From positions 62,001 to 126,000 of the forward strand of contig PMSN01000022.1 in assembly GCA_003167555.1 (NCBI GenBank): 64,000 bases of DNA. The letters are read 5' to 3'. A program made the position numbers and the translations under genes. Shown in pieces: positions 2,173-60,665 of the stretch (positions are counted from its first letter, which is position 1; each line of letters starts with the position of its first letter). Under the pieces are notes generated by a model. The model was not told where the DNA came from, did no database searches, and saw only the letters and a list, made by a program, of their open reading frames with translations. Source of the stretch: Spartobacteria bacterium. GTDB taxonomy: Bacteria > Verrucomicrobiota > Verrucomicrobiia > Chthoniobacterales > UBA10450.

Positions 2173-2889
2173 ATGCGTATCGCGGAAATGAATTGGATGA
2201 TGGTGGAGGAATACCTTACCCGCGACGATCGCTGTGTCTTGCCGCTCGGGAGCACGGAGCAGCATGCGTATCTGAGTTTGAGCGTGGATAGCATTTTGGC
2301 GGAACGACTCGCCATCGAAGCCGCGGAGCCGCTCGGCTTGCCGGTTTTTCCGGTGCTGGCTTACGGCATTACGCCGTACTTCCGCGCGTTTCCGGGAACG
2401 ATAACGCTGCGAATGCAAACTTACCTGTCGATCTTGCGCGATATTCTCGACGCGATGGCTGAGCAGGGGTTCAAACGCATCCTGATAGTCAACGGCCATG
2501 GCGGGAACGCGCCCGCGCAAGGCTTAATCGGCGAATGGACGGCCGATCATCCGGAGGTGCGGATCAAATTTCACAACTGGTGGAATGCGCCGAAAGTTTG
2601 GGCGCAGGTCCAGGCCATCGATCCGGTCGCGTCGCATGCGTCGTGGATGGAGAATTTTCCCTGGACGCGGCTGGCGAACATCGAGTTGCCGCCCGAACAA
2701 AAGCCGATGAGCGATCTCGAGGTGATCCGCCAGCTCGATCCGAAGTCTTTGCGCGCCTATTTGAAGGACGGAAACTTTGGCGGCCGTTATCAGCGCGATG
2801 ACGAGGAGATGATGAAGATCTGGCGTGTTGGCGTGGAGGAGACGCGGGAGTTGTTAAACGCGGGCTGGGCCGCTGAAATTAGAACGTAG
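2173..2889 (+). CDS. Creatininase family amidohydrolase
   Basis: A 238-residue protein of the creatininase / FAPy-deformylase superfamily, metal-dependent cyclic-amide hydrolases. The family signature appears as LPLGSTEQHAYLSLSVDSILAE, where Glu, His and Asp are the expected metal ligands, and as NGHGGNAP (residues about 105-112), with a further metal-binding histidine. The usual sequence after EQH is GPHLP, so the AYLSLS version is slightly divergent. The length is typical of the family. The actual substrate is unknown; many such genes act on compounds other than creatinine. The stop codon lies in another purine heptamer repeat. Confidence 0.88.
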   Translation: MRIAEMNWMMVEEYLTRDDRCVLPLGSTEQHAYLSLSVDSILAERLAIEAAEPLGLPVFPVLAYGITPYFRAFPGTITLRMQTYLSILRDILDAMAEQGFKRILIVNGHGGNAPAQGLIGEWTADHPEVRIKFHNWWNAPKVWAQVQAIDPVASHASWMENFPWTRLANIELPPEQKPMSDLEVIRQLDPKSLRAYLKDGNFGGRYQRDDEEMMKIWRVGVEETRELLNAGWAAEIRT

Positions 2890-2935
2890 GAAGTAGAAAG
2901 TAGAAAACGTCAGAGGGCAGAGGGGTTATAATTGA
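2884..2935. repeat. Purine-rich heptamer repeat
   Basis: GTAGGAAGTAGAAAGTAGAA followed by CAGAGGGCAGAGGGG, the same composite as at 2078. It contains the creatininase stop codon (2887-2889). Confidence 0.8.
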
Positions 2936-2960
2936 ACATTTCAAGTGCGGCTTAGGCCTT

Positions 2961-3953
2961 TCAGCCCCAAAGCTCGCGAGATGGAAGACCGATCTTTCCA
3001 GCTTGATACAAGAGTCCGTGATGCCGATCACCGGCCAGAAGTAACGGACCGTCCAAGTCAACATAATCTGTAGCACCCGCGAGGAGGCGCGCTGGAGCAA
3101 TTCCCAAGGAAGTGCAGACCATGCAGCCGATCAACAGTTTCAGGCCGCTTTGGCGGGCGCGCTCCGTCAGTAACAAGGCTTCCGTCAGTCCTCCCGTCTT
3201 ATCCAACTTTACGTTGATCGCATCGTAGCGGTTAACGAGTCGGGGTAAGTCGGCGGTGGTATGGCAACTCTCATCCGCGCACACTGGAACCGGATGGTCT
3301 AGGGTTTCCAGGGCGTCATCCGCGTCGGCCGGGAAAGGTTGTTCGATGAGTTCAACTCCTAACCCGCGCAGCGCAGAAACGATCTCTCGATAATGCGACG
3401 GGGACCACGACTCGTTGGCGTCAACCAGCAGACGCGCTGCCGGCGCCGCTCCTCTCACAGCTTCCGCCCGCGGAAGGTCGAGGCTGTCGCCTCCGAGTTT
3501 CAGCTTCAGGATGGGGGCGCTTTTGCTTACTTGGGCAGCCGCGGCCATTTTCTCCGGGGTGTCCAGACTGATTGTAAACGCCGTTTCAACTGCACCAACG
3601 ATTTGAATGTTCGCAAGTTCCCACGCGCGCTTGCCGGAAATTTTCGCTTCCAGATCCCAGAATGCACAGTCCAAAGCGTTCCGTGCGGCAGAGGCGGGCA
3701 GTAATTTTTGAATCTGCTGCCGGTCAATTTTTTCTCCTTTCACAGAGACTTGCTCGAGCTGAGCGACCGTGGACGCGGCGTTTTGACCGTAGCGCGAGAT
3801 TGGAACGGCCTCGCCGCGGCCGGTGTGTTCGCCGTCACTTACTGTGACAACAACGACACGCGCTTCGGTGCTGGCACCGCGAGCAATTCGAAAAGGCTTG
3901 TCGAGCGGCCAACTTTGCTCGGTGACCCTCAATTCAAAGTTGTGCGCGCTCAT
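2961..3953 (-). CDS. Dipeptide epimerase (enolase superfamily, L-Ala-D/L-Glu epimerase type)
   Basis: A 330-residue enolase-superfamily enzyme of the muconate lactonizing subgroup, expected to epimerise dipeptides such as L-Ala-D-Glu released during murein recycling. The catalytic lysine motif KLKLGG (residues about 153-158) is present, as are the metal ligands in DANESW and CADESC and the second catalytic lysine in NVKLDKTGG. An N-terminal capping domain precedes the barrel. The gene faces the creatininase gene tail to tail with 71 bp between them. Specificity for Ala-Glu against other dipeptides cannot be read from the sequence. Confidence 0.9.
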   Translation of the reverse strand: MSAHNFELRVTEQSWPLDKPFRIARGASTEARVVVVTVSDGEHTGRGEAVPISRYGQNAASTVAQLEQVSVKGEKIDRQQIQKLLPASAARNALDCAFWDLEAKISGKRAWELANIQIVGAVETAFTISLDTPEKMAAAAQVSKSAPILKLKLGGDSLDLPRAEAVRGAAPAARLLVDANESWSPSHYREIVSALRGLGVELIEQPFPADADDALETLDHPVPVCADESCHTTADLPRLVNRYDAINVKLDKTGGLTEALLLTERARQSGLKLLIGCMVCTSLGIAPARLLAGATDYVDLDGPLLLAGDRHHGLLYQAGKIGLPSRELWG

Positions 3954-4085
3954 TCAGCGATTTCAGGTTAGCGGCTGCCGTACGCGACGATGAGACGAAG
4001 CGCCAGTTATTTTCGCGGCCCGAAGACGACGAGCATGAGCGAAATCACTTGGAACCGGCTGGGAAAGAGGGAGGGTGAAGGTCTT

Positions 4086-4196
4086 ATGGGAAACAGCCAA
4101 GGCAGAGACAACGTAAGGAAACGCGCATCACGCCGCAAAAAGACCGAGCGGCTCGCGGCCGCCAAGAAAGAAACGAAGAAGAAAAGTGGAAAGTAG
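4086..4196 (+). CDS. Small, highly basic hypothetical protein
   Basis: A 36-residue frame rich in Lys and Arg (RKRASRRKKTERLAAAKKE). The start is chosen at an ATG preceded by GGAGGGTGAAGG five or six bases upstream, a strong ribosome binding site; a longer frame opening at 3990 lacks one. Such a charged peptide could bind nucleic acid or ribosomes, but no family is recognised. The stop codon falls in a purine heptamer repeat. It could also be a chance frame; the ribosome binding site is the main support. Confidence 0.5.
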   Translation: MGNSQGRDNVRKRASRRKKTERLAAAKKETKKKSGK

Positions 4197-4224
4197 GAAT
4201 TAGAAAGTAGAAAACGAAGAGGAC
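4187..4224. repeat. Purine-rich heptamer repeat
   Basis: GGAAAGTAGGAATTAGAAAG and following GTAGAAAACGAAGAGGACAG. It contains the stop of the small basic gene. Confidence 0.75.
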
Positions 4225-4229
4225 AGCAG

Positions 4230-5339
4230 TCAGCGATCGGATGGCGGTTTTGCCCTCGCCGGAATCAGTTTATTAACGAAACCGTTGGTCGCTTTCTCCA
4301 AAATGATTCCCCACGCGCTGAGGACGGCGAGAGTCGCGGCCGCGATGAGCAGAAACATCCAGATAGGTTGTGCGCGAATGCGAAGTCCCAGCCAGATTAC
4401 ATAAGGTTGGTGGACGAGATAAAGGCCATAGGAGAACGTTCCGACCAGGCCGAACAGTTTAGCCGGGCCCGAGAGCAGGGTGATGATTCCGGCAACACCG
4501 ACGACGACGAGGAAACAACACGCGCCCGTGGCAAGATCGACAAAGACGTAGGTGAGACCGTTGTGGTAAAGCCAGAGCGCCGCGGGATAGAGCAGCAATC
4601 CGGCGACCAATCCGGCGCCGCGCAGGAGAAGCCGTTCCGCGGACGCGGGTGATCGGCTGTGCCACATTCCGAGGGCCATGCCCAGGGCGAACTCCGGCAA
4701 CCGGGAAATGGCGAAGCCGCCGAGTATCCACAGTCCGTCTTGTGGATAAACAAAGAGCATCAGATAGCGCACGAAAAATCCCAGGGCGCACGCGATTAAC
4801 AAGAAAATCCACGGGCCGAGTTTTTGTGCGGCCCAAAAGAGCAGGGGAAAGATCAAATAGAATTGGATCAGCATGGAAAAGTACCACCATGCGGCGTTGA
4901 GGTACATGAAGTTCATCGTGATATCGATGAAGCGCAGACCGAGCAGACTCAGAACAATCCTACTGTCCACGGGTTCGAGACGCGCCACGAAAGGCGAAAG
5001 CAGATAAACCAAATGGGCGACCCAGTACATCGGATAAAGACGCAGGAACCGCGCGCGATACCAGTGTCCCCAGTTCATGGCGCCCGACTCCGCGCGGCGG
5101 GCGGTTGATTGCATCAACGCCCAACCGCTCAGGATTATAAAAACGCCGACGGCATGGAAGCCGACGCCGGAAACTTGAATCCACACATATCGCAGAGCCG
5201 TGGCGGCGCCGGCGGCGAGCCCACTCCAGTCGGCGGCGGGAAGGGTTCCGTGCTCGAAGTAGGTTCGGAAGAAGTGAAAGTAAACAACCCAGAGGATCGC
5301 CAGTCCCTTCGCGACATCGAGCCAAAGAAGGCGTTTCAC
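4230..5339 (-). CDS. Acyltransferase 3 family membrane protein (OafA-like)
   Basis: A 369-residue integral membrane protein with about ten hydrophobic segments, of the acyltransferase 3 family that O-acylates sugars of surface polysaccharides or related acceptors. The N-terminal segment RLLWLDVAKGLAILWVVY, followed by a conserved histidine (FHF), is the family signature. TM helices alternate with Arg/Lys-rich loops, and the C-terminus is basic and cytoplasmic (IPARAKPPSDR). No polysaccharide gene cluster is adjacent, so the acceptor is unknown. The 233-bp gap to the SRPBCC gene holds a purine repeat. Confidence 0.9.
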   Translation of the reverse strand: MKRLLWLDVAKGLAILWVVYFHFFRTYFEHGTLPAADWSGLAAGAATALRYVWIQVSGVGFHAVGVFIILSGWALMQSTARRAESGAMNWGHWYRARFLRLYPMYWVAHLVYLLSPFVARLEPVDSRIVLSLLGLRFIDITMNFMYLNAAWWYFSMLIQFYLIFPLLFWAAQKLGPWIFLLIACALGFFVRYLMLFVYPQDGLWILGGFAISRLPEFALGMALGMWHSRSPASAERLLLRGAGLVAGLLLYPAALWLYHNGLTYVFVDLATGACCFLVVVGVAGIITLLSGPAKLFGLVGTFSYGLYLVHQPYVIWLGLRIRAQPIWMFLLIAAATLAVLSAWGIILEKATNGFVNKLIPARAKPPSDR

Positions 5340-5360
5340 TGCATCCGCTTACCAGCACGT

Positions 5361-5423
5361 ACGAAGAGTAGGAAGGAGAAAAGACAGAGGGCGGAAGACG
5401 GAGATCAGAAGACAGAAGTCTAA
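5361..5423. repeat. Purine-rich heptamer repeat, degenerate
   Basis: GAGTAGGAAGGAGAAAAGAC followed by GGAAGACGGAGATCAGAAGA units. Same composite as at 2078, more decayed, upstream of the acyltransferase start. Confidence 0.7.
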
Positions 5424-5572
5424 GGGGGAGGTCGATCGGTTTCAGCGTTGACGAGAGATGCGAATTTTTCGCAGAGTGCCATTCGCTCGCCGCGAGTCTC
5501 TGTCGGAAGGGAGGGCGGCGACGATTCACTCTAACATTGGGAGGACGCGGCTGAGGCAGGAAGGGAGAAAAC

Positions 5573-6028
5573 ACGACCACGAAAAATCAGTCGGCGGAAG
5601 CGGTTGTCATCGAGCGCACGTTCACCGCGTCTGTCGCGCGGGTTTGGAAGGCGCTCACCGATGTGGAGGAAATGCGGCGGTGGTATTTCGATCTGAAGGA
5701 ATTCAGGTCCGAGGTGGGCTTTGAATTTGAGTTCATCGTCGAGCACGAAGGCATGAAGTATCATCATCTTTGCAAGATCACTGAGGTGATTCCGCAAGAG
5801 AAGCTCGCCTATACCTGGCGCTACCAAGGACACGAGGGCAATTCACTGGTCACGTTTGAATTGTTCGCCGATGGCGACAAAACGCGACTGAAGCTGACCC
5901 ATGAGGGTTTGGAAACGTTTCCGAAGACTCCGTCGTTCGCGCGCGAAAATTTTATCGCGGGCTGGACGCAAATCATTGGGTCATCGCTCAAAGAGTTTGT
6001 CGAAAGCGATGGTGCGGATCGGATTTAA
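5573..6028 (+). CDS. SRPBCC / AHSA1-type protein with apparent ACG start
   Basis: A START/Bet v 1-like (SRPBCC) protein of about 151 residues. AHSA1-type domains bind hydrophobic ligands or act as Hsp90-activator-like folds; the function here is unknown. The first in-frame ATG (5663) would remove the conserved first strand and helix VVIERTFTASVARVWKALTD. That conserved part is in frame upstream as far as a TGA at 5552, with no ATG, GTG or TTG before it. An AAGGGAG ribosome binding site sits five bases before ACG at 5573, giving TTKNQSAEAVVIERTF, as expected if ATG had become ACG. The C-terminal helix (FIAGWTQIIGSSLKEFVE) is intact. ACG initiation, a start-codon mutation or a base error are all possible. 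Confidence 0.8.
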   Translation, partial: TTTKNQSAEAVVIERTFTASVARVWKALTDVEEMRRWYFDLKEFRSEVGFEFEFIVEHEGMKYHHLCKITEVIPQEKLAYTWRYQGHEGNSLVTFELFADGDKTRLKLTHEGLETFPKTPSFARENFIAGWTQIIGSSLKEFVESDGADRI

Positions 6029-50076: not shown

Positions 50077-50147
50077 CTGTAGCGGCGGTCTCTGACCGCC
50101 GAATGCGTTGCGTGAATTCGTTCGGCGGTCAGAGACCGCCGCTACAG
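50077..50147. repeat. Palindromic element C
   Basis: 71 bp, perfect 27-bp arms CTGTAGCGGCGGTC to GACCGCCGAA and the complement ending CCGCTACAG. Each arm is itself a hairpin (CGGCGGTC and GACCGCCG around three bases). Copies at 54132 and 59154 (half); a decayed half at 50187-50213. It lies just after rpsP. Confidence 0.92.
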
Positions 50148-53941: not shown

Positions 53942-54137
53942 ATGGCGTTACTAATGAAACCAAGCTGCGAGAAATGCGGGCCGCTCTCTGGCGGAACGCG
54001 ATGTGGCTTTGATTTGCAGCTACGAATGCACTTTTTGCGCGGAGTGCACCGAAGTGATGGGCCACGGCTGCCCTAATTGCGGCGGCGAGCTGGTGCGGCG
54101 GCCGCGGCGGGGCAACGCAGAGGGAATATCCCTGTAG
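53942..54137 (+). pseudogene. DUF1272 zinc-ribbon protein with a frameshift
   Basis: Codons 53942 onward read MALLMKPSCEKCG. Shifting one base (one G in the run of three at about 53978 looks extra) gives RSLAERDVALICSYECTFCA, then ECTEVMGHGCPNCGGELVRR and PRRGNAEGISL before TAG. Four Cys pairs are those of DUF1272, a small zinc-ribbon-like family of unknown role. The TAG lies in element C. A base error could explain the shift. Confidence 0.8.
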
Positions 54138-54205
54138 CGGCGGTCTATGACCGCCGACAAACTATTACAAGCCACGCGTTCGGCGGTCAGAGACCGCCGC
54201 TACAG
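54132..54205. repeat. Palindromic element C copy
   Basis: 74 bp, arms CTGTAGCGGCGGTCTATGAC and GTTCGGCGGTCAGAGACCGC, one mismatch in the left arm (TCTATGACC against TCTCTGACC). It contains the stop of the DUF1272 frame. Confidence 0.9.
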
Positions 54206-57146: not shown

Positions 57147-58433
57147 TTACACGGCTGTCGCCGGCGTAGCTGCCGTTTCAGACTCCGCTCCGACGGTCTC
57201 CGGGCATTCGCACACCGTTCGCCCCGCTGCGCTCAGTACCAGGACGGACCCAATGCCAAAGAGAATCGCGGCGATCGCCAGGGCCGGTCGCATTCCGATC
57301 CAGTCCGACAGCCCCGTGATCATCAATCCGGCAATCGGCATCAACCCAAAAAAGCTCAGACCGAAAATCGCCGAGACGCGCCCGCGCAATGGGGCGGGCG
57401 AACGTTCCTGCACGATCGTGCCGGCGAGACCGAAATTGAGCGAGAGCCCGATCGCGAGCGTCCCCATGCAGCACGCCGTCAGCGCGAAGCTGTTCGAGCG
57501 CGACAGGAAAAAAAGCGCGACCGCCACGAACACCGCAGCAGCGGTCATGAACTTGAAGCGAAGTGCACGCGCCACGCTGAGCAGCCCGATCGACCCCGAG
57601 AGCGATCCGATCGCCGAGATGCCCATCAACATTCCCATTCGATCCGGGCCGAGTTGAAGAACATTGCGCACGTAAAGCGGCAGCATGACCGAGATGACCG
57701 GGAAAACGAAAATCGTCGTCAGCGCGATCAGCGCGATCATGGAAAGAATCGTGCGATCCGAGCGGACGAAGCGCAGGCCTTCCTTGAAACCGCTGCGCCG
57801 TTGCTCTTCTTCTTCGGCGGTGCCTTTGGCTCGCGGCGGCAAGGAGATGAGCGCGATGATCAAGGCGATGAACGAGATCGCGTTGCAAAAAAAGGCCGAG
57901 GCTGCTCCCCACCACGCCACGAATAATCCCGCCAGGAACGGCCCGACCAGACGCGAGCCATGAAAGACAGAACGATCCAGCGCGATCGCCGTCGCGATCT
58001 GCTCCTTCTTCACCAACTCCGGGACGAGCGCGCTGATCGCCGGCATTTCGAACGCGATGCAAGTGCCGAGAACGGCCGCGATCAAAACCACATGCCAGAT
58101 TTGAATCCGGCCCGTCATCACAAGCGCTCCTAGCGTGATGGCGGTTGCGATTTGCACCACCTGCGTCGCGATCAGGATCATGCGTTTATCGTGACGGTCT
58201 GCCACCGAGCCACCGATCATGGTGAGCGCGAGCGTGGGAATTCCCGCCGCGAAGTTCACCATGCCGAGCATGAGCGCGTGATTGGTGAGCGCGCTCATCA
58301 CCCAACCCTGCGCCATCACCTGCATCCACGTGCCCGTATCGGAGATGGCCGACCCGATGATGTAACGCCGGAACGGTCCCTCGCGCAGCAACGTCAGCGT
58401 GCGACTCGCGAAGTTTTTTTCCTGGACGGTCAT
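57147..58433 (-). CDS. MFS exporter (EntS-like)
   Basis: A 428-residue MFS transporter with 12 hydrophobic segments and the motif GGSVADRHDKRMILIATQ in the 2-3 loop, as in EntS/YfiS-type exporters. N-terminus MTVQEKNFASRTLTLLREGP; the C-terminus has an acidic tail (PETVGAESETAATP). The substrate is unknown. Confidence 0.9.
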   Translation of the reverse strand: MTVQEKNFASRTLTLLREGPFRRYIIGSAISDTGTWMQVMAQGWVMSALTNHALMLGMVNFAAGIPTLALTMIGGSVADRHDKRMILIATQVVQIATAITLGALVMTGRIQIWHVVLIAAVLGTCIAFEMPAISALVPELVKKEQIATAIALDRSVFHGSRLVGPFLAGLFVAWWGAASAFFCNAISFIALIIALISLPPRAKGTAEEEEQRRSGFKEGLRFVRSDRTILSMIALIALTTIFVFPVISVMLPLYVRNVLQLGPDRMGMLMGISAIGSLSGSIGLLSVARALRFKFMTAAAVFVAVALFFLSRSNSFALTACCMGTLAIGLSLNFGLAGTIVQERSPAPLRGRVSAIFGLSFFGLMPIAGLMITGLSDWIGMRPALAIAAILFGIGSVLVLSAAGRTVCECPETVGAESETAATPATAV

Positions 58434-58541
58434 CGGCCAGACTCATACGCGGAGAAGGCGCGGCTCGCAATCGCACAGGAACACCTGCGCAAGACTGATG
58501 GTCTCCGAATTTGAGTAGGAAGCGTTGCGATAGAATGTCTG

Positions 58542-58704
58542 GGTAGCGCATGCGTCTCGCGTGCTAGTTTCGGCGTCTCGCCGAAACAATCTTTTCCGAG
58601 ACGCCCGCGCTTCTATTTTGCCCTTTTCCCCGGCGAAAGGACGTGAGCGAAAGTCCGCACTGGCGGGACGCCAGTGCCATCACGTGAGACGCGTGCGCTA
58701 CCCA
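58542..58704. repeat. Palindromic element H, Y-shaped
   Basis: 163 bp with outer arms GGGTAGCGCATGCGTCTCGC and the complement GCGTGCGCTACCC (2 mismatches in 23), and two inner hairpins, GTTTCGGCG/CGCCGAAAC (loop TCT) and GCACTGGCG/CGCCAGTGC (loop GGA). It lies in the 440-bp gap 58434-58873, in which no gene is evident. Confidence 0.9.
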
Positions 58705-58873
58705 ATCATTCGGCAGCGAAGCGCGCAAAGGTAACTCGGTCTCTTTGTTCCAGTGCATTGCAGCGGCCCGGAGATCACGCGCAGGTCTCAGCAGCTTCAG
58801 CAACGCTGTAGAATTCGCGATCGGCGAAACTTGCCAATTGCACCAAAGACGTCAAGACGTCTAAGGTAAAGCG

Positions 58874-60061
58874 GTGAAATATTCCGAAGAGAAATCCAAG
58901 GAGAAACGCAAGCCAGGCGCGGTGAGGGATGCGATCATGGAGACGCTGGCTTACCGCACACACGGCGCGACGGTGGCGCAAATTGCGGAAAGCGTGAGTC
59001 AGCGGATTGGGCCAACGCCGCCATCGTCCGTGCGCTCGTATTTGCGGCTCAACACGCCGAGGCTCTTCAGGAAGATGGATCGCGGACATTATGTCGTGCG
59101 CGAGGAGGCGCAAGCGACGCTGGTTTTCGCGAACGGTGCGCAGGCGAGTTCGGTTCGGCGGTCAGAGACCGCCGCTACAGGTCCGGAGCGCGAGGCGTTT
59201 CGGTTTGGGAATGCGACGCTCATTCATGGCGATTGTTTCGACTGGCTGGCGAAAGCGCCGACGAACAGCGTCGAAGCGGTCGTGACCGATCCGCCTTATG
59301 GGCTGGTCGAGTACAGCGAGCAGGAACAGGCAAAATTACGCAAGGGACGCGGCGGTGTCTGGCGCATCCCGCCCTCGTTCGACGGGAACAAGCGCGCGCC
59401 GCTTCCGCGTTTCACTGTGCTGACGCGGGAAGATATCGGCGAGCTGGAACGCTTCTTCTTTGCCTGGGCGCGGTTGCTCCTTCCGGTGGTTGTTCCCGGC
59501 GGGCATGTTCTGATCGCGTCGAATCCGCTCCTTTCGTTTGTGGTTGCGACTGCCGTGACGCGCGCGGGATTCGAGCGGCGGGGCGAGATCATTCGGTTGA
59601 CTATGACGATGCGGGGCGGAGATCGGCCGAAAGCCGCGCACACTGAGTTTGCGGATGTGAGCGTGATGCCGCGCTCGATGTGGGAACCGTGGTTGATTTT
59701 TCGCAAGCCGATCGAAGGTCGCGTGCAGGATAATTTGCGCCGCTGGAAGACAGGCGGGTTTCGCCGGCCATCGAAGGATCAGCCTTTTGGCGATGTAATC
59801 GCGTCTTCTCCGACGCGGAAACAGGAGCGCGCTCTCGCGCCGCATCCGAGTCTCAAGCCGCAGACGTTCATGCGAAAGATTGTTCGGGCCGTATTGCCGC
59901 TCGGCGAAGGTACGGTGCTCGATACTTTTGCCGGCGCTGGTTCCACCCTCGCCGCCGCAGAAGCGATCGGTTACGCGAGCATCGGGATCGAGAAGGACCA
60001 GCGTTACTTCGACACGGCGCGGACTGCGATTCCGAAACTGCGCGCGATGAAAATCAGCTAA
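58874..60061 (+). CDS. Beta-class DNA methyltransferase with N-terminal winged helix
   Basis: A 395-residue amino-methyltransferase (N4-cytosine or N6-adenine). A winged-helix-like domain (residues about 10-75, with HGATVAQIAESVSQRIGPT) precedes the catalytic DPPYGL at 139-144 and the AdoMet motif FAGAGST near 352 (catalytic motif first, so beta class). Residues about 94-102 (VRRSETAAT) are half of element C. It faces the endonuclease gene tail to tail and overlaps it by 8 bp, as in type II restriction-modification pairs. The recognition site is unknown. Confidence 0.92.
   Translation: MKYSEEKSKEKRKPGAVRDAIMETLAYRTHGATVAQIAESVSQRIGPTPPSSVRSYLRLNTPRLFRKMDRGHYVVREEAQATLVFANGAQASSVRRSETAATGPEREAFRFGNATLIHGDCFDWLAKAPTNSVEAVVTDPPYGLVEYSEQEQAKLRKGRGGVWRIPPSFDGNKRAPLPRFTVLTREDIGELERFFFAWARLLLPVVVPGGHVLIASNPLLSFVVATAVTRAGFERRGEIIRLTMTMRGGDRPKAAHTEFADVSVMPRSMWEPWLIFRKPIEGRVQDNLRRWKTGGFRRPSKDQPFGDVIASSPTRKQERALAPHPSLKPQTFMRKIVRAVLPLGEGTVLDTFAGAGSTLAAAEAIGYASIGIEKDQRYFDTARTAIPKLRAMKIS
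59154..59180. repeat. Half of palindromic element C, inside the methyltransferase gene
   Basis: TTCGGCGGTCAGAGACCGCC then GCTACAG, 27 bp and a perfect match to the right arm at 50121-50147. It is nine codons and keeps the frame. The left arm is absent. Confidence 0.92.
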
Positions 60062-60665
60062 CCTTGTCCTTGTAGATCCAGTTCTCGCGCAGCTTCAAGA
60101 CGCCCTCGCGATGCAGAGTAGCGGTGCGAGTCCCGAGTTCACCGCGCGCATTCTTGCGGAAGTCGGCGATCGACACCTGGGCTAGATAGATTTCGGTGAA
60201 CGCCATCGGCATGCGTTTGCGGGCTGGTTCGGTGACGTTGTCGGTATTGTAGACAAAGACCGCCATCCATTGGTCGCGGGCTCCGTGCGTATCGACCGCG
60301 CCGCCACTCTTTCGCGTCGTCTTGATCTCGACGCCTTCCGTGCCCGCTTTGACCGAGTCGTTCGGATAGGCGCCCTTTACGACGAGATCGGGATGCCCGT
60401 TGAAGTATTTGTTTTGGGTCAGAGAGCGCGAATGCTTCGACAGGCTCGCTGTGAGCAGATCGGAAAGGAAGCCGGACATGATTGCTGGGCGAAGGAAGTC
60501 GTCGAGGCGTTCCAGTCCTTTTTCGAGGAGGCCGGTATTGATGTCGTGGAAGAGATCGTAAACATCCTGCATCGCGATTTCGAAGTCTTTTAGTCGGAGC
60601 TGAAACGGAAGCGATGCGGCGGCGTTGAAATTATCGCGCTTCGGCCGGTTACGCTGCGCGGGCAT
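60054..60665 (-). CDS. PD-(D/E)XK type II restriction endonuclease
   Basis: A 203-residue protein with a nuclease core: HPDLVV (P92-D93) and, 20 residues later, GVEIKTTRK (E113-I-K115), the PD-(D/E)XK pattern. The length suits a type II enzyme. It overlaps the methyltransferase gene by 8 bp, end to end. The target sequence is not known and no relative is recognised with certainty. Confidence 0.82.
   Translation of the reverse strand: MPAQRNRPKRDNFNAAASLPFQLRLKDFEIAMQDVYDLFHDINTGLLEKGLERLDDFLRPAIMSGFLSDLLTASLSKHSRSLTQNKYFNGHPDLVVKGAYPNDSVKAGTEGVEIKTTRKSGGAVDTHGARDQWMAVFVYNTDNVTEPARKRMPMAFTEIYLAQVSIADFRKNARGELGTRTATLHREGVLKLRENWIYKDKVS

Follow-up and report, generated by a model that had tools for sequence, protein, structure and literature searches.

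A solitary GTAG-type REP hairpin in the interdomain linker of a DNA methyltransferase gene, shared by two spartobacterial sister species

Introduction

How does half of an inverted repeat come to stand alone inside the gene of an enzyme, and does such a half travel by itself or outlive a lost partner? The question arises from a stretch of 64,000 nucleotides, here called the window, in the genome of a Spartobacteria bacterium (G000; 4.2 Mb in 29 contigs, assembly 98 % complete). A preliminary description of this DNA reported a 27-bp copy of one repeat arm within a methyltransferase gene and took it as a sign that one hairpin can move or survive alone. The locus was compared with the sister species G003, which belongs to the same genus and is only about 80 % identical in DNA; its contig is the same as that of the MAG palsa_1413 (PLCN01000015.1).

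Results and discussion

The sequence TTCGGCGGTCAGAGACCGCCGCTACAG is present exactly at positions 59154-59180, 50121-50147 and 54179-54205 on the plus strand and at 50077-50103 on the minus strand; in dinucleotide-shuffled windows it was never matched and 0.00 matches were expected. Outside the methyltransferase gene the copies form two inverted pairs. Element C (50077..50147) consists of a minus arm (50077-50103) and a plus arm (50121-50147) with the GTAG heads outward, and the second paired copy (54132..54205) of the plus arm at 54179-54205 and a fourth arm on the minus strand (54132-54158), a copy with two mismatches. Both pairs are common to G000 and G003, element C at the orthologous place. 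REPs are defined by a GTAG (GT(A/G)G) head beside an imperfect or perfect palindrome of 20-40 bp (PMC2817692, PMC3733652). The unit found here has a GTAG head, an 8-bp stem and a 3-base loop and is a perfect palindrome. Read on the minus strand, the solo copy at 59154..59180 is CTGTAG-CGGCGGTC-TCT-GACCGCCG-AA, a GTAG-type REP identified by the exact match and by its folding, with energies of -10.2 kcal/mol as DNA (z -3.3) and -15.4 as RNA (z -2.4). Two inverted REPs at one site, the hallmark of a REPIN, are seen at 50077 and 54132; the methyltransferase copy is solo in both species. A search for a left arm within 85 bases on the inner side of 59154-59180 gave at best 9 mismatches over 18 defined positions, against a shuffle median of 8 mismatches, and a hidden decayed arm was therefore rejected; a trace of it was found neither in G000 nor in G003. 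The identity with the right arm of C and the lack of a left arm, both described before, are thus confirmed. A putative decayed copy at the end of an MFS gene (57165-57200), suspected from the peptide AESETAAT, was discarded as its DNA differs from the repeat. A different palindromic element lies at 58533-58711, about 160 bases upstream of the methyltransferase gene, with 50-nt inverted ends (78 %), GTAGCGCAYGCGTCTC heads and two inner hairpins.

The host gene (58874..60061, plus strand) codes for an N6/N4 DNA methyltransferase of 395 amino acids according to Pfam and fold. The Pfam domain N6_N4_Mtase spans residues 133-382, and the modelled fold is of the CcrM/TTHA0409 type. The first letter of the REP is base 2 of codon 94 and its last is base 1 of codon 103; in the sense of the gene it encodes (V)RRSETAAT(G), residues 94-103, and the sense strand of the repeat is free of stops in all three frames. 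In the AlphaFold model, helices and strands at residues 16-75 are followed by disorder at 85-104 and by the catalytic fold from 108 onwards, which agrees with the earlier placement of the repeat between the winged-helix and the catalytic part. The pLDDT falls below 50 at exactly residues 85-104, with good confidence on both adjoining sides. Between G000 and G003 the dN/dS is 0.054 outside codons 81-110 and 1.16 within these linker codons, a small sample. By this comparison the enzyme has been kept under strong purifying selection since the split of the two species while the linker drifted, and the REP lies wholly inside an apparently functional gene with the frame kept.

Methyltransferase homologues with a readable linker were compared in 82 records, a few genomes being counted twice. 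The nine residues were absent from 79 of the 82 and, among the homologues, occurred only in G003, where they are encoded by the same hairpin DNA. The preliminary description would have fallen with homologues that encode VRRSETAAT by other DNA; none appeared, and the idea of ancestral residues was rejected. Since only G003 shares residues and hairpin, the insertion is older than the divergence of the two species, and the sequences place the REP in the methyltransferase gene of their common ancestor. In G003 one loop base of the hairpin and two bases of its head end (CTACAG to CTATAA) are altered, three changes in all; both species, about 0.6 synonymous substitutions per site apart, still have an intact stem. 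Measured between the chosen marks, the linker has 42 residues in most homologues, 48-52 in near relatives and 54 in G000 and G003, a net gain of six codons versus G012 and of five versus G094 and G062. Of the earlier statement that nine codons keep the frame, the reading frame and the repeat length of nine codons hold, but the linker has gained only five to six. To judge from these lengths, the insertion either did not add nine codons cleanly or was trimmed later by small losses. The exact insertion ends could not be read from G012, which is 85 % identical with a linker that differs throughout, and none of the relatives compared offered an empty site close enough in sequence.

Convergent to the methyltransferase gene lies an ORF of 203 amino acids (60054..60665, minus strand), a predicted restriction endonuclease of the EcoRV/NaeI/BglI-like kind (HPDL...GVEIKTTRK). 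Its model found EcoRV as the best Foldseek match (E 1e-3, probability 0.98), and the similarities to EcoRV, NaeI and BglI were weak but consistent (E about 1e-3, probability 0.96-0.99, TM-scores below 0.45). The ORF is conserved (dN/dS 0.095 between G000 and G003) and adjoins the methyltransferase gene in most homologous loci of several phyla; the arrangement at 58874-60665 recurs in Verrucomicrobia, Chloroflexota, Nitrospirota, Proteobacteria and others. Pfam, NCBIfam and PADLOC did not recognise the predicted nuclease. By sequence and model, the two genes are a putative type II-like restriction-modification pair. A dead methyltransferase beside a working nuclease should be lethal, and from this we infer that the hairpin is tolerated by the enzyme. 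The locus offers a dated case of an in-frame REP in an enzyme whose absence, next to an intact nuclease, should carry a cost; what such an in-gene REP costs could be measured in a simple protection assay.

A search of the whole G000 genome with at most one mismatch revealed 99 matches to the REP pattern, about 10 of them of a related GGAG type, and G003 contained 195; the high copy number expected of GTAG REPs is thus found in both, and searches with the reversed pattern gave no match. The G000 copies occupy about 60 sites, of which 34 hold inverted pairs and about 26 a solo. In the pairs, the heads point outward and the spacers of 9-38 nt have no common sequence, the inverted dimers typical of such REPs. 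The family was detected in 77 of 83 genomes of the taxonomic family. Among 20 orthologous REP arms a concerted loop turnover was observed: 13 have the loop AGA in G000 and ATA in G003, the loops in each genome following the majority there, and the spacers have diverged (window 50077-50147 and 54132-54205, G003 L200 and others). The pattern suggests that REP copies convert one another or that REPs insert again at the same places. Hairpins of a second family, headed by GGAG (GGAGCGGCGGTTTGAAACCGCCG), were present at locus L162 4788-5565 (G000:C23:521467-521739) and at L177-L180, and very similar hairpins (GGAGCGGCGATTTTCAATCGCCG) flank a RAYT of 208 amino acids.

The transposase that belongs to the REPs was encountered in the sister species. 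In G003, a RAYT of 163 amino acids (C3:211405-211857; NCBIfam REP_Tyr_transpos, 97 bits) lies between two inverted REPs of this family, and one more REP is located outside the two. The 98 % complete assembly of G000 yielded no cognate RAYT: the nearest RAYT there is 42 % identical and not flanked by these REPs, and the other Y1_Tnp genes were dismissed because they are accompanied by other hairpins or by none of these REPs. The family may thus be an orphan in G000, or its gene may be hidden in the 2 % that the assembly lacks. RAYTs elsewhere in the genus are associated with hairpins of other stems, mostly with the same GTAG head, as is expected if RAYT and REP co-evolve. By this association and by analogy with the literature, a RAYT of the G003 type presumably mobilises the REPs.

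Solo half-elements, a search for which had been proposed, number about 26 among some 60 sites. Only three or four of them retain a recognisable decayed partner, and about 22 show none. Twenty-five G000 sites could be placed in G003 stretches, which were mostly chosen around G003 REPs, so that empty sites are under-sampled; clean empty sites were for this reason, and with about 80 % DNA identity, mostly out of reach. All G000 pairs that were placed with both flanks are paired in G003 too, and four G000 solos (L125, L141, L168, L172) are pairs there. At L141 2001-2031 (G000:C14:38511-38537) only one hairpin is left of a pair like that of G003, by a precise collapse that cost about 46 bp; it has GTAG on both ends and flanks of 91-94 % identity. 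Arm decay is thereby documented as one way in which solos come about. Bertels and Rainey (PMC3116915) described the same two routes to REP singlets, pair decay and pair collapse, regarded singlets as defunct, and observed excision of doublets but never of singlets. Survival of a lone hairpin, one half of the earlier claim, is borne out by the four loci; movement is not, as the methyltransferase solo is shared with G003 and no recent movement is seen. How pairs give rise to single REPs is directly visible in the comparison with G003, which supports the reading of singlets as relics. The methyltransferase copy, solo in both species, fits the loss of a pair partner with an older date of loss.

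In our judgement, the 27 bp are quite likely a single REP that is tolerated as a relic in the disordered linker and stems from a RAYT-made insertion, probably a pair of which one arm was lost. An insertion, probably a normal inverted pair, would have arrived within the linker or close to it; the loss of one arm together with a few codons beside it, before the species split, would have left a frame-compatible solo. The REP would have escaped removal because its sense strand has no stop in any of the three frames and differences in length are tolerated by the linker. It would have no necessary role in the protein and, as proposed for REP singlets in Pseudomonas, would no longer be able to move alone. 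The pair origin at this site we infer from the other sites, since a left-arm trace is missing here in both species; the failure to find a cognate RAYT in G000 also speaks against this explanation. Its strongest competitor, although on balance somewhat unlikely, is the insertion of a single hairpin by a RAYT with one REP, not a pair, as the unit of movement: about 22 of the 26 solos have no recognisable partner and the methyltransferase REP is solo in both species, but every paired site placed with both flanks is paired in both species, the sister species has pairs at the sites of four solos, excision was seen for doublets and not for singlets, and the net gain is five to six codons rather than nine.

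That the hairpin has been kept for a function, as a structure of mRNA or DNA or because the nine residues help the enzyme, appears improbable. The stem persists while the surrounding linker drifts between G000 and G003, and the hairpin folds better than its shuffles; a few unchanged stem bases are, however, unsurprising in 27 bp, the linker has a dN/dS of about 1.2, G003 has altered the loop and the GTAG head end, and the 79 records without the hairpin do without it. Coincidence, with ancestral residues that resemble the repeat by convergent coding, can be considered negligible: the linker varies and the repeat shares the high G+C of the genome, but an exact 27-mer is not met in shuffles and the one other species with the residues has them from the same DNA.

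Other in-gene REPs of the family, identified by ORF, codon-position G+C and Pfam, bring the in-gene sites to about 7 of 60. Pairs are located in frame in the genes for the Obg GTPase (L138), a DEAD-box helicase (L152), an alpha-amylase (L128, common to G003) and a PMT-type glycosyltransferase (L127), and a solo REP in frame in the gene of a GDSL-lipase-like protein (L146). RarA/MgsA (L163), 18 amino acids longer than most relatives, contains in frame a pair with one decayed arm, which is found decayed in G003 too. This fraction is much smaller than the proportion of coding DNA that bacterial genomes generally have; few in-gene REPs are expected if most insertions into genes are purged.

The methyltransferase REP joins an already known kind: a catalogue of 2013 lists GTAG REPs inside genes, both as singles and as pairs, with Opitutus terrae, a verrucomicrobium, as the richest host (Di Nocera et al. 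2013, PMC3733652). The resemblance extends to the GTAG head, the short palindrome, the inverted dimers, the RAYT association and the in-frame copies in genes, single or dimeric, many of which are in DNA-handling genes in that catalogue; the stem sequence, the family and the host, a Spartobacteria-type MAG, are different. The main text of that paper has no mention of a methyltransferase host. Beyond the catalogue, the present copy is datable by a shared orthologue and its host enzyme is shown to be under constraint. In the REPINs and REP singlets of PMC3116915, inverted pairs are likewise the common form and singlets include decayed pairs and products of pair collapse, whereas the methyltransferase copy, unlike a REPIN, is not a pair. 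Rickettsia palindromic elements are also in-frame palindromic repeats in genes probably encoding functional proteins; RPE-4 and RPE-6 are the counterparts of CGTC REPs in R. conorii, and RPE-1 has a greater length (PMC3733652). The repeat in the methyltransferase gene differs from them by its GTAG head and its RAYT association, and neither a CGTC-type nor an RPE-1 sequence is present. With IS200/IS605 elements the system shares a related HUH transposase, the RAYT, and hairpins at the ends, but a solo REP has no gene and corresponds to one end only.

Whole RAYT genes were also encountered inside housekeeping genes, called as open frames of at least 500 amino acids without internal stop. One RAYT subfamily is nearly always located in frame inside host genes (63 of 72 matches, in 49 of 83 genomes), by Pfam recG, metH (at two sites) and alaS; a second group resides in carB, valS and a Sua5 gene. 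Peptides encoded by REPs are present at the joins. We hold it conceivable, with considerable doubt, that hairpins, pairs and whole RAYTs are regularly housed in ORFs of this verrucomicrobial family, with the methyltransferase hairpin as the smallest member. No prior description of RAYTs in frame inside housekeeping genes was found in the open-access literature; RAYT genes in frame inside essential genes would matter more than the methyltransferase REP. In G000 the recG insertion occupies L121 3780-4235, within the recG ORF 2727-5693 (minus strand) on contig C1, and further in-gene loci are L344, L345, L346, L247, L254 and L348-L377. The recG insertion is found at one site in G000, G001, G003, G005, G007 and several other genera, and probably also in one genome of another family; recG of G002, G004 and G006, of the same genus, has no RAYT and a normal length of 695-715 amino acids. 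On both sides of the RAYT, recG shows a dN/dS of 0.06-0.08 and thus purifying selection. The RAYT within it keeps the HUH motif (pN 0.107, synonymous sites near saturation). The in-gene RAYTs resemble an intein-like residence without a known splicing domain.
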